From contig NZ_VTEX01000004.1 of assembly GCF_008180865.1 (NCBI RefSeq), forward strand, positions 1-64,000: a stretch of DNA of 64,000 nucleotides, given 5' to 3'. Shown here one piece after another: positions 35,925-50,812 of the stretch. How positions within the stretch are numbered: position 1 is the stretch's first letter; each line of letters starts with the position of its first letter. The notes under the pieces were generated by a model, which saw only the letters and a program-made list of their open reading frames with translations, was not told the origin of the DNA and did no database searches. Source of the DNA: Rossellomorea aquimaris. GTDB lineage: Bacteria; Bacillota; Bacilli; Bacillales; Bacillaceae_B. The translations under genes were made by a program, and so were the position numbers.

Positions 35925-35974
35925 AGAAGGAAAATCAAAAAAAGAAGATTTTTTTGAAAACGCTATCATAAACG

Positions 35975-36252
35975 AAAAGCGGAGGCGGCTTGGGCAGGCC
36001 CGACAAGCATAAGGCGAGACCAGCGGAAAGGCGCACTTTGCCTTTTTGGTGGTCTTGACTTATGACCTCGAGGGGCTAGCCGCCGGAGCTGGACATTTCG
36101 AAAAGCGGAAGGGCTTTGCCCAGAGGCGACAAGCATAAGGCGGCCCCACCAGAAAGGCGCTCTTTGCCTTTGTGGTGTTCTTGACTTATGACCTCGAGCC
36201 CCAAGCCCCTGGAGCTGGACATCGCGAAAAGCGGAGGCGGCTTGGCCAGGCA
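35975..36252. repeat. Dispersed palindromic repeat, two full units plus a partial unit
   Basis: Units start at 35975, 36101 and 36227 (126-bp period); the third is cut after about 26 bases. The first has outer stem GCGGCT/AGCCGC, the second has GGGCTT/AAGCCC at the same place, showing paired change. The open frame on the minus strand (35966-36292) is only the repeat read through. The rest of 35837-36396 shows no gene except the gudB promoter region. Confidence 0.9.
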
Positions 36253-36396: not shown

Positions 36397-36981
36397 TCAG
36401 AAATAAAACAGAATTTTATCAATGGAATCCTTTATTAAAACAGCACGGCCGTACTCCATCAGGATATGTTTCGTAATCTTTGATTGTTGACCGTATTCAG
36501 CGCAAATAGCCTCCATGACCAAGCTATCGTATTCCAATAGATTTTCAATAAGTAAGTAGTAGTTTTTTTCATAATAATAAATGCTTAATTGTATAAGGCG
36601 ATTGTTCACTTTGTTCAATTCGTTGATACGTTTAAGGAGGTCCAGTACATCCTCGAAATCCTCAAAGTAAACGAGCACATCATGATCATTCATGGACTTC
36701 ATGATTCCACTTTCGTCTTCCCAATCAGAAAAGTCATCTTCTGACTCTAATGTGAGGATCATGCAGATTTCCTGATCATCAAATGACTCAATCTCAACGG
36801 TGATTTCCATCTGTGTTTCAATGCCGAACTTCCCTTGAACTTCATCTAACATGTCTTCAAAAAGATCATGCCACATATAGGAATCTTTCCATTGGTCTTG
36901 TTCAAATAAGCCTTTTTGCTCTAATTCTTCCACACTAATGGAAAATTTTATTTTGTTGTCAGAAATTCTTTCAAGCTTCAT
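36397..36981 (-). CDS. mecB: MecA-family adaptor protein (MecB/YpbH)
   Basis: MecA-family adaptors target substrates to ClpCP; the paralogue YpbH acts on competence and sporulation. The 194-residue protein has the N-terminal substrate-binding domain starting MKLERISDNKIKFSI, an acidic linker and the C-terminal ClpC-binding domain. Length and place next to ypbG match YpbH rather than MecA. The ATG at 36981 with AGGGGGT upstream is preferred to an upstream start. Confidence 0.88.
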   Translation of the reverse strand: MKLERISDNKIKFSISVEELEQKGLFEQDQWKDSYMWHDLFEDMLDEVQGKFGIETQMEITVEIESFDDQEICMILTLESEDDFSDWEDESGIMKSMNDHDVLVYFEDFEDVLDLLKRINELNKVNNRLIQLSIYYYEKNYYLLIENLLEYDSLVMEAICAEYGQQSKITKHILMEYGRAVLIKDSIDKILFYF

Positions 36982-37052
36982 CTTCGTACCCCCTAGAGTG
37001 TGACGATTTATCACCATACTATGTAAGGGGCAGAAAACAGTGCATAATCCAA

Positions 37053-37964
37053 TTATAATTTACTTTTCAGCCATAGTTCCCAATCAGGTTTGGATTGTCC
37101 GACAATGTGTTCCTGAAATTCCTCTTTCTTTTCTTTTGGGAGATGGTCTACTGCAAAACCGCCAATTCCAATTTCCAGGCCATCCCGCTCACTCTTTAAT
37201 GAAGTAACGAGTGACAACAGGTTATCTACATTTTCCCTTAAGGTGCAGGAGAAGAACAGAAACTTAGGGTCGACTTCGTCAAGAACGACGTCGATATCAT
37301 TTTCTTTAATACTCGAGCCTAAATAGATTACTTCAAATCCCTTTCTTCTTACATAGAGAGTAAAGATTAACAATCCCAACTCATGCCATTCGTCCGGTCC
37401 GCAAACTGCTACTACTTTAGGCAAGATTCCGTTGTGAGGAAAAGAGTGCATGATGATTCCGATACGGGATCTCAGTATCGATGTTGCAAAATGCTCGTGA
37501 GCCGTCGTAATTTTCCCGTTCTCCCACAGGTCTCCGATTTTAACCAGCAAGCTGCCCAGGATATCGATCACCACTTTATCTATCGTGTAAACAGCAAACG
37601 ACTGGTTGATTAATTCATGGGCTTTTGTTTCATCAAAGCTTAAGAGTGCTTTTAACAAATCATCCGAGATGCTCTGAGTGCGGTCCTTTCGTTCAGAGGA
37701 TGCAATCTCATTTTCTTCCAGCTCTTGTTTATCAAGTAACGCAACTGCCTGACTGATCGTAAATCCCTGATTGACCTTTTCAACCAGCCATTTCAATATA
37801 TTTAAATGTTGTTCTGTGTACAATCGATGACCTGATTCATTACGTACAGGAGCAATTATCTGATATCTTCTCTCCCATGCCCTTAATGTACCTGGTTGTA
37901 TTCCTAAGATTGTGGACACAGCTTTTATATTGTATTTGCCTTCTAACTTCTTGTCATTGCTCAT
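37053..37964 (-). CDS. litR: LitR/CarH-type B12-dependent photoreceptor regulator
   Basis: The 303-residue protein has a MerR winged-helix domain (about 11-80, with IQPGTLRAWERRY), a helical B12-binding domain (about 100-175) and a C-terminal Rossmann-like cobalamin domain. The photoreceptor signatures are complete: W147 followed after nine residues by E157-H158, and E192-x-H194-xx-G197, whose histidine is the lower cobalt ligand in CarH. Such proteins hold adenosylcobalamin in the dark, bind DNA as tetramers and release it in light. A dyad overlaps the -35 of its own promoter. Family assignment is strong; light response here is inference. Confidence 0.88.
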   Translation of the reverse strand: MSNDKKLEGKYNIKAVSTILGIQPGTLRAWERRYQIIAPVRNESGHRLYTEQHLNILKWLVEKVNQGFTISQAVALLDKQELEENEIASSERKDRTQSISDDLLKALLSFDETKAHELINQSFAVYTIDKVVIDILGSLLVKIGDLWENGKITTAHEHFATSILRSRIGIIMHSFPHNGILPKVVAVCGPDEWHELGLLIFTLYVRRKGFEVIYLGSSIKENDIDVVLDEVDPKFLFFSCTLRENVDNLLSLVTSLKSERDGLEIGIGGFAVDHLPKEKKEEFQEHIVGQSKPDWELWLKSKL

Positions 37965-37999: not shown

Positions 38000-38028
38000 A
38001 TTATAATCGAGAAACCGCACTGTGTAAA
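38000..38028 (-). promoter_or_regulatory. SigA promoter of litR
   Basis: On the minus strand TTTACA (38023-38028) and TATAAT (38000-38005) are separated by exactly 17 nt, about 40 nt before the litR start codon. Confidence 0.8.
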
Positions 38029-38037
38029 ATTTGTACA
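38023..38037. promoter_or_regulatory. Candidate LitR operator
   Basis: The 15-nt dyad TGTAAAATTTGTACA has only one mismatched pair around its centre and covers the whole -35 box of the litR promoter. A long dyad of TGT...ACA type over a -35 is the usual arrangement for CarH/LitR autorepression. Confidence 0.55.
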
Positions 38038-38061
38038 GGTAATGAACAACAAATGTTCATT

Positions 38062-38826
38062 TCATTCCTTTTCGATTTTCAGTAAATGGGTCTCTGCAGG
38101 AGCTCCCAAGCGTAATGGGAGCGCAGTTGTCCCATAGCCGTTACTTACTAATAGGGTGGTCTGTGGGAGCTTTTCAAGTCTTCCTTTTTTATACAGTCCC
38201 CAACCAAACAATCGAATTTGTCCACCGTGTGTATGGCCACTCAACATCAGGTCAATCCCCTCTTCTTTTCGTACCTGCCTTACAAGTCTCGGGTCATGAC
38301 TGATTAATATATTAAATTCATACGGTGTTGTTTTTTTAAGGGAAGAAGAGTAAGAAGCTTTCTGCGTACTCGCATCGTCCACTCCGATCAGGTTAACCTT
38401 CCCGTTTTGAATAGGCACCTTAACTGAATCATTTACAATTTCAATGATTCCCTTTTGTTTAAATATATCCTTCAGCCTGTTCGTATTCACTTCATGATCA
38501 TTATTGCCCCATACGAAATAAACCGTTCCCAGTGTCAATAGTTTATCTAAGTTTTGCTCAACTCTTGAGTAGGGCACTCCTTTTTCCAACAGATCCCCGC
38601 CAATGATGACAAAATCGACTTTCCCTTTCACTTCATCAATAATTCCGTCTGACACTTCCCTCTTATGTATATCAGATATAAAAAAGATGGAAATCGCGCT
38701 CATATGATGAGGAAGGGCAAGAAGCTTGACCTTCTCCATTTTCACAACATTTCTACGTGCTTCATATAACATAAAAAAGAGGAGACTGACTCCCCCTACT
38801 AATAAAAATATACTAAATTCAAGCAT
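38062..38826 (-). CDS. ypbG: Membrane-anchored metallophosphoesterase YpbG
   Basis: The 254-residue protein has an N-terminal membrane helix (about 4-22) and a calcineurin-like phosphoesterase domain with metal-binding motifs SDIHKR near residue 52, GGDLLEKG near 76, GNNDHE near 107, SHDPR near 177 and GHTHGGQIRLFG near 197. Substrate unknown. It overlaps the preceding membrane-protein gene by 8 nt with AAGGAGG upstream, so the two are co-translated. Confidence 0.88.
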   Translation of the reverse strand: MLEFSIFLLVGGVSLLFFMLYEARRNVVKMEKVKLLALPHHMSAISIFFISDIHKREVSDGIIDEVKGKVDFVIIGGDLLEKGVPYSRVEQNLDKLLTLGTVYFVWGNNDHEVNTNRLKDIFKQKGIIEIVNDSVKVPIQNGKVNLIGVDDASTQKASYSSSLKKTTPYEFNILISHDPRLVRQVRKEEGIDLMLSGHTHGGQIRLFGWGLYKKGRLEKLPQTTLLVSNGYGTTALPLRLGAPAETHLLKIEKE

Positions 38827-48767: not shown

Positions 48768-48899
48768 CTTCATCTTCTCCCATCCAGACTATACTGTCGG
48801 CTTTGGAATCGCACCAAATCCTGCCCGTGAAGGCTCGCGGGCTTAGAGACAAATGTCTCATCACCGCCGGTAGGGAATTTCACCCTGCCCCGAAGACGA
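48768..48899 (-). promoter_or_regulatory. FMN riboswitch (RFN element)
   Basis: The minus strand shows the RFN core in order: TCTTCGGGGCAGGGTGAAAT, CCCTACCGGCGGTGATGA, a variable stem with GCCCGCGAGCC, GATTTGGTGCGATTCCAAAG and CCGACAGTATAGTCTGGATG, closing with GGGAGAAGATG. These conserved blocks surround the FMN pocket. FMN binding should favour the downstream terminator and shut off ribU. Confidence 0.97.
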
Positions 48900-48923
48900 A
48901 TCTTTATTTTTTTATACATTTTC

Positions 48924-49930: not shown

Positions 49931-50142
49931 GCTTGTCCTCCTTACCCATTTAACGCAATACCTTATTTCTTCCCTACTGAAGCTTCACGTCCGCTACCTT
50001 TTCATCTATTAACCCATTCTTACCTTCTCACCATCATTTCATGCACTCCCCACTATATGTAGACCCTCCATTCAATATTCACAAGTGAATGAGATAATTT
50101 TCCTTTGAGTAGTTTGTCTAAGTCTAAGATAAATATACACCC
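49931..50142. other. Intergenic region before the repeat array
   Basis: No gene, clear promoter or hairpin is seen between the M23 gene start and the first repeat unit, apart from the M23 ribosome site. Together with the array the gene-free stretch is about 940 bases. Confidence 0.5.
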
Positions 50143-50812
50143 AAAAGCGGAGGCGGCTTGTTCAGAGGCGACAAGCATAAGACGAACAGGCCGGAAAGGC
50201 GTTCTTTGCCTTTTTGGCCTGTTTGACTTATGACCTCGAGGGGCTAGCCGCTGGAGCTGGATGACACCCAAAAGCGGAGGCGGCTCGTTCAGAGGCGACA
50301 AGCATAAGATGAATTGGCCGGGAAGGCGTCCTTTGCCTTCTTGGCCAATTTAGCTTATGACCTCGAGGGGCTAGCCGCCGGAGCTGGATGACACCCAAAA
50401 GCGGAGGCGGCTCGTTCAGAGGCGACAAGCATAAGATGAATTGGCCGGGAAGGCGTCCTTTGCCTTCTTGACCAATTTAGCTTATGACCTCGAGGGGCTA
50501 GCCGCCGGAGCTGGACGACACCAAAAGCGGAGGCGGCTCGTTCAGAGGCGACAAGCATAAGACGAACAGGCCGGAAAGGCGTTCTTTGCCTTTTGGGTCT
50601 GTTTGACTTATGACCTCGAGCCTCTAGCCGCCGGAGCTGGATGACACCCAAAAGCGGAGGCGGCTTGTTCAGCCCTGACAAGCATAAGATGAATTGGCCG
50701 GGAAAGCGTCCTTTGCCTTCTTGGCCAATTTAGCTTAGGACCTCGAGGGGCTAGCCGCCGGAGCTGGACGACACCAAAAGCGGAGGCCGCTCGTTCAGCC
50801 CCGACAAGCATG
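50143..50812. repeat. Tandem array of five palindromic repeat units plus a partial sixth
   Basis: Units start at 50143, 50270, 50397, 50523, 50650 and 50776 (126-127 bp period), the last cut after about 37 bases. Each folds with outer GCGGCT/AGCCGC, an inner pair CATAAG/CTTATG and a variable inner stem: AACAGGCC/GGCCTGTT in units 1 and 4-like, AATTGGCC/GGCCAATT in units 2 and 5. All units keep GACAAGCATAAG and GACCTCGAG. Overlapping open frames on the minus strand are read-through of the repeat. Confidence 0.95.

Follow-up and report, generated by a model that had tools for sequence, protein, structure and literature searches.

A CarH/LitR-type regulator of Rossellomorea aquimaris with predicted target sites at carotenoid and mgsR-like genes

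Cobalamin photoreceptors and the CarH-type protein

The closest described systems are the CarH/LitR proteins of Thermus thermophilus (CarHTt, here TtCarH) and Bacillus (Priestia) megaterium QM B1551 (CarHBm), which in the dark sit as adenosylcobalamin (AdoCbl)-bound oligomers on tandem repeats and are released in light (PMC9304148, PMC10442372, PMC8156234). Their operators consist of tandem 11-mers of the form nnnnTnnACAn; in CarHBm, four such repeats, or three with an additional imperfect one, overlie -35 or -10 elements (PMC9304148). CarHBm, a Gram-positive CarH, controls crt genes (PMC6739363); the literature on it, as covered here, mentions neither an mgsR nor a DUF4397 target, and our comparison with it is by description rather than by sequence. 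Two motifs, Wx9EH and ExHx2Gx41SxV/Tx22-27GG, together define CarH (PMC8156234), and in TtCarH light makes H132, the neighbour of W131, the upper ligand of cobalt (PMC10442372). Further relatives are the light-regulated class II LitR proteins of Pseudomonas (PmlR2, PplR1), which belong to the MerR family and recognize TGTACA-type sites (PMC9758184), the photocobilins (8j2w, from Saccharothrix) and CtMerR of Chloracidobacterium (8jbs).

We examined a carH-type gene in a 64,000-nucleotide stretch of R. aquimaris DNA, hereafter referred to as the window (Table 1). The first-pass annotation had described its product as a CarH/LitR-type regulator with an N-terminal MerR domain and two cobalamin signatures, W147-x9-E157-H158 and E192-x-H194-xx-G197, and all of these were recovered. 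MerR_1 (PF13411) scored 55.4 bits against a cut-off of 21.6 (Pfam), B12-binding_2 and B12-binding scored 54.4 and 46.6 bits (Pfam; both over cut-off), Wx9EH matched residues 147-158, and the second signature lies inside a full ExHx2Gx41SxV/Tx22-27GG match at residues 192-269, so that both motif sets support the assignment. Wx9EH arose by chance in 1.75% and ExHx2G in 5.5% of 20,000 shuffles of the protein; taken alone, the short motifs are weak evidence.

Table 1. Features of the carH-type locus in the window, domains of its product, and exact triple-repeat sites on contigs C1 and C12 of the same genome
Feature	Position	Strand	Remark
carH-type gene	37053..37964	(-)	303 aa ORF; MerR HTH + four-helix B12 cap + Rossmann B12 domain
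MerR HTH	residues 11-79 of carH-type protein		
Four-helix B12 cap	residues 101-171 of carH-type protein		
Rossmann B12 domain	residues 183-281 of carH-type protein		
mecB/MecA-like adaptor, downstream neighbour	36397..37017	(-)	syntenic marker; possible read-through from carH promoter
ypbG-like metallophosphoesterase, upstream neighbour	38062..38826	(-)	syntenic marker
Predicted CarH operator, four tandem 11-bp repeats	38021..38059	(-)	near-identical in congeners
Operator repeat 1, TGAACA	38059-38054	(-)	
Operator repeat 2, TGTTCA	38048-38043	(-)	imperfect
Operator repeat 3, TGTACA	38037-38032	(-)	
Operator repeat 4, TACACA	38026-38021	(-)	overlaps -35 box
-35 box TTTACA, predicted sigma-A promoter of carH	38023..38028	(-)	promoter scan
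-10 box TATAAT, same predicted promoter	38000..38005	(-)	promoter scan
Exact triple site before crt operon	C1:229291-229318		
Exact triple site before mgsR-like gene P0002	C12:246189-246216		

Structural comparison, which the first-pass annotation had proposed as a check, led to the same family. The best PDB sequence matches were T. thermophilus CarH/LitR (3whp, E 2.4e-23; 5c8d, E 2.7e-23), which shares domain order, both cobalamin motifs and fold with the window protein but only about 25% identity. An AlphaFold2 model (built from 18 sequences; mean pLDDT 82.9, pTM 0.65) placed 5c8e and 5c8d first in Foldseek, but the rmsd was large over the full length and the domain orientation is thus poorly modelled. 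Its cobalamin part (residues 94-303) superposed on the TtCarH domain across about 196 residues (Z about 21, rmsd about 2.4), a tie with photocobilin 8j2w (Z 21.9), followed by CtMerR (Z 17.8) and MetH (Z 17.2). Photocobilins share this cobalamin photoreceptor fold but have another overall make-up, with a chain of about 330 residues; CtMerR also shares the fold but is less similar. Class II LitR proteins keep the four-helix part only, whereas both B12 subdomains are present here, and PmlR2, unlike the window protein, works with a LOV protein (PMC9758184). The narrow NCBIfam equivalog NF052513 (TransRegCarH) gave 129.3 bits, far under its cut-off of 400. On sequence grounds, we assign the protein to the known class I CarH/LitR family as an additional member, probably one closely related to the B. 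megaterium regulator already studied. The same genome gave three matches to Cob_adeno_trans over cut-off; these represent adenosyltransferase genes that could supply AdoCbl, which makes cofactor supply plausible.

We further compared 91 distinct orthologous proteins drawn from 121 loci. The cap residues W147, E157 and H158 were kept in 89, 91 and 90 of them, respectively, H194 in 90, and H156, which turns the cap motif into HEH, in 88. The complete Wx9EH was absent from 3 of the 91; syntenic orthologues without it were seen at loci L201, L203 and L231, suggesting that the light cap may be lost in some lineages. In a sequence alignment with PDB relatives, the residue at the TtCarH H132 position is E148, and this position is Glu in 87/91 distinct proteins and His in none of the 91. 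With E148 in place of H132, a bis-His light state through that position is excluded, and judged from the alignment the light state of the window protein must differ in detail from that of Thermus CarH. The earlier CarH picture thus stood with regard to regulator type and motif sets but omitted the replacement of the light-state His by Glu148.

This replacement bears on an alternative that we regard as unlikely, namely that the protein senses AdoCbl level or redox instead of light and that, without His132, its oligomer may persist under illumination. One study found the TtCarH H132A variant to stay mostly tetrameric in light, although it cites an earlier report of disassembly (PMC10442372), and no bis-His state is seen in illuminated CtMerR, which has Arg here (PMC11796333). 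CtMerR is nonetheless presented among light-responsive proteins despite its Arg, and photocobilins likewise have no His there (PMC11796333). Variation at the H132 position has already been reported in other cobalamin photoreceptors, and E148 is compatible with a light response. Moreover, 88/91 proteins retain the Wx9EH cap, which keeps the photolabile adenosyl group in place, and the predicted targets described below suit photoprotection, with crt at 27 of 98 loci and a photolyase at one. A light-sensing role remains our preferred reading, and the conserved Glu makes the need of bis-His ligation for release testable in a natural lineage.

The carH locus and its promoter

Orthologues of the window protein are widespread. 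The one in a congener was 98% identical and that in R. aquimaris 97B 97%, and full-length orthologues occurred in 34 of 36 genus genomes, our own included, with 65-98% identity apart from the query itself; the other two, G015 and G028, gave short weak matches only. Across the order, 199 of 299 genomes and 68 of 116 genera matched the protein at E up to 1e-20, counts that may include paralogues. We then inspected 40 order loci, one or few per genus, which were picked from the better-scoring matches and are thus biased towards orthologues. The neighbours ypbG or mecB lay beside carH in all 40, and both did in 33; mecB was undetected in three and ypbG in four, with carH kept in these. The first-pass annotation had noted that carotenoid genes are missing from the surroundings, and this holds more widely: crt probes had no match in 40/40 orthologous loci (stretches of 10-13.5 kb), and the one squalene/phytoene-synthase match of the R. 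aquimaris genome is on a different contig from carH. By contrast, the two distant matches (L065, L066), which come from MAGs of Anaerolineales and Caldilineales, had crtN-like matches within about 3 kb.

In the whole window, the four-repeat pattern with up to one mismatch was expected 0.01 times and matched once, upstream of carH. The predicted sigma-A promoter that it overlaps, TTTACA-N17-TATAAT, has 11/12 consensus matches and a spacer of 17; the upstream region overall held 10 promoter-like sites versus 8.7 in shuffles. This layout of three plus one repeats over the -35 box resembles the described CarHBm operators (PMC9304148), while it differs from the three repeats of CarHTt. Within the genus, 29 of 30 carH promoters (30 of 34 orthologues tested) passed a shuffle test at 11-bp spacing, compared with 5 at 9 bp and none at 10, 12 or 13 bp. 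At the 40 order loci, the 11-bp spacing passed in 17 cases and the 9-bp spacing in 10, with 1 pass at 10 bp, 2 at 12 bp and 0 at 13 bp. We read the 9-bp signal as the -35 box TTTACA following TATACA at that distance within one block. Autoregulation of carH, as predicted from these repeats, is well supported within the genus and only moderately so outside it.

The short gap between carH and mecB contained no terminator-like site, and mecB could therefore be co-transcribed from the carH promoter. Together with the conserved neighbourhood, in which ypbG and mecB flank carH in 33/40 order loci and at least one of them does in 40/40, this gap could be taken to mean that the protein acts locally on ypbG and mecB. 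We consider such local action very improbable: carH is retained where mecB (3/40) or ypbG (4/40) is undetected, and exact repeat sites are concentrated at crt and mgsR-like genes rather than at ypbG. The first-pass annotation had offered the flanking mecB/ypbG region as possible targets; of the predicted operators, one lies in this region, at the carH promoter.

The window also contains two arrays of a similar tandem 126/127-bp unit, AAAAGCGGAGGCGGCT..., at 35973-36247 (2.2 copies) and 50137-50811 (5.3 copies); the first lies in the mecB-gudB gap, the length of which varies among relatives. An FMN riboswitch was found at 48768-48901 (-) with 122 bits.

Predicted sites in the genome, genus and order

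A loose pattern of four TnnACA repeats performed poorly in the R. aquimaris genome (9 matches versus 7 for the reversed control, up to two mismatches) and was discarded there; across 36 genus genomes, allowing one mismatch at most, its matches numbered 137 and those of the control 8. Many of the loose matches were TTTACA 11-bp repeats, which by our reading resemble PhoP boxes, e.g., upstream of a phosphate-binding-protein-like gene (L069), and the pattern was consequently tightened to TRTACA-N5-TRTACA-N5-TRTACA, scored out of 18. Only two exact triple repeats occur in the 4.7-Mb genome, one before a crt operon (two CrtI-family desaturases and a squalene/phytoene synthase) and the other before the mgsR-like gene (Table 1). 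Up to two mismatches gave 13 matches versus 1 for the reversed control, the additional ones being at the carH promoter, at a DUF4397-sortase operon and at three isolated sites. The last three (L264, L265 and L269, the latter inside a gene) were set aside as chance matches or sites of another kind. The expectation that targets lie elsewhere in the genome is supported by the predicted sites at crt, mgsR-like and DUF4397-sortase genes.

These sites recur in the genus. All 31 crt promoters examined scored 17 or 18 of 18, and in each the site lies on the strand opposite crtN, 14-29 nt before its start; these are 31 of the 32 genus genomes with a PF00494 match, the weak match of G028 being left out. 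Exact sites (18 of 18) precede the mgsR-like gene in 33 of 34 genomes, the exception being a degraded site in G010 (score 15). Shuffles reached at most 15 and other repeat spacings at most 16. Two genomes with carH, G022 and G010, have no PF00494 match. We had expected a promoter beneath the crt repeats, but the promoter scan detected none of sigma-A type on the strand of crt; TATAAT hexamers are readable there, yet with that scan result a placement of the repeats over a crt -10 box is our reading only. The mgsR repeats contain weak promoters near chance level (3 found versus 1.4 in shuffles).

The DUF4397 protein and sortase operon (L137, G000:C10, 6649-8132) carries a CarH-type repeat array that was conserved in 6/6 genus genomes viewed (G000, G002, G006, G013, G026 and G033); in some congeners, part of the array takes the form of an inverted repeat, TGTACAAGT...ACTTGTACA.

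Taken with the protein features, these sites make it probable that the gene encodes a photoreceptor-repressor of CarH/LitR class I, which would directly control its own gene (through the repeats over -35), the crt operon, the mgsR-like gene and the DUF4397-sortase operon. In the dark, AdoCbl would cap the protein, an oligomer would form, and its MerR domains would occupy the tandem 11-bp promoter repeats. In light, the Co-C bond would be broken, the oligomer would loosen and the promoters would open. With crt and the mgsR-like gene both among the targets, light would raise carotenoids and an Spx/MgsR-type stress regulator together.

We next extended the search to 299 genomes of the order, where exact triple sites occurred in 92 genomes and the reversed pattern matched once in 299. 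Of the 199 genomes that encode the protein, 91 had sites, versus 1 of the 100 without it (Fisher P = 6e-19, shared ancestry ignored), and removal of our own genus left 79 of 187 versus 1 of 100 (P = 6e-17, ancestry ignored). The remaining 108 of the 199 protein-bearing genomes had no exact triple site in this search, which covered the exact pattern only. Outside the genus, 109 exact sites were listed, of which 99, at 98 loci, were examined, with the first site per locus labelled; ten sites (G068, G090, G125, G153, G217, G223, G242, G264 twice, and G311) were left out. The site preceded an mgsR-like gene, with a product 51-73% identical to P0002, at 56 of the 98 loci, crtN at 27, a DUF4397 gene at four and a second CarH paralogue at one, leaving ten others, one of them a photolyase/cryptochrome gene in G053. 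The mgsR label of L363 is borderline at 51% identity, and a same-strand crtN label at L359 (24% identity) was not counted.

Two of these loci were viewed individually. The triple repeat in G053 (L409, 1454-1481) lies between the photolyase/cryptochrome gene and an oxidoreductase-like ORF in divergent orientation, and that in G211 stands at the start of the second, diverged CarH paralogue (L328, 595-1528; 37% identity).

The predicted mgsR-like target and its proposed link to light

The product of the mgsR-like gene, P0002, scored 121.4 bits against a cut-off of 75.05 for the Spx/MgsR family TIGR01617 and also exceeded the cut-off of the Spx model NF002459 (131.8 versus 123); its nearest solved relative is Spx. 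P0002-like (58-66% identity) and Spx-like (45-49%) proteins are encoded by separate genes in G077, G110 and G209. In Bacillus subtilis, MgsR is a redox-sensitive regulator of about 70 genes, and mgsR is described as exclusively sigma-B dependent and positively autoregulated (PMC7235348). Our literature search, which missed most subscription papers including both primary CarHBm papers, found no report pairing mgsR or yqgZ with CarH or LitR.

Within the genus, an mgsR-like match at 1e-40 was present in 34/34 genomes with carH and 0/2 without it. We also searched 48 of the 102 known carH-less genomes (100 from the order draw plus G015 and G028) and found an mgsR-like match at 1e-30 in 38, of which only three had 58-66% identity; the remaining best matches had 44-50% identity, and those inspected start like Spx. 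Thirty promoters from carH-less genomes scored 11-14 of 18, except that of G209 (17).

These comparisons also bear on whether the repeats belong to PhoP, to MgsR itself or to another MerR protein, with an indirect link to carH, which we judge quite improbable. The looser TnnACA searches do also catch PhoP-like TTTACA repeats, such as the one at L069, and MgsR of B. subtilis is positively autoregulated (PMC7235348). The TRTACA version, however, is nearly absent without the protein (1/100 genomes), whereas TTTACA matches persist in the two carH-less genus members. Among the three genomes with an mgsR-like gene and no carH match, two do not have the repeats, scoring 12 and 14 of 18, while one scores 17 of 18, and the repeats both fit published CarH operators (PMC9304148) and occur at carH and crt as well.

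The main addition of this analysis is the predicted CarH regulon, above all the conserved candidate site at the mgsR-like gene. If the prediction is true, one B12 photoreceptor would couple light to pigment and to a redox-type stress regulator in many spore-formers. The mgsR-like gene is commoner than crt at the non-genus sites (56 versus 27 of 98), by which the family's presumed purpose here would change. We lean, with some reserve, towards a broader model in which, in many Bacillales genera, a syntenically fixed CarH directly represses both the mgsR-like gene and the carotenoid operon. Green light, perceived by way of B12, would then launch an Spx-type stress programme. CarH would act as a general photo-stress regulator of Gram-positive spore-formers rather than as a carotenoid switch, through a light state that does without the His132 ligand.

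A further cobalamin protein was seen in the R. aquimaris genome. At L139 (G000:C10, 6569-7219), we read a stand-alone B12 module of 216 aa with Wx9EH and ExHx2G, adjoining an ORF without Pfam or NCBIfam matches and a carbonic-anhydrase-like ORF. This module is a possible second cobalamin light sensor, and second matches similar to it were listed for most genus genomes.
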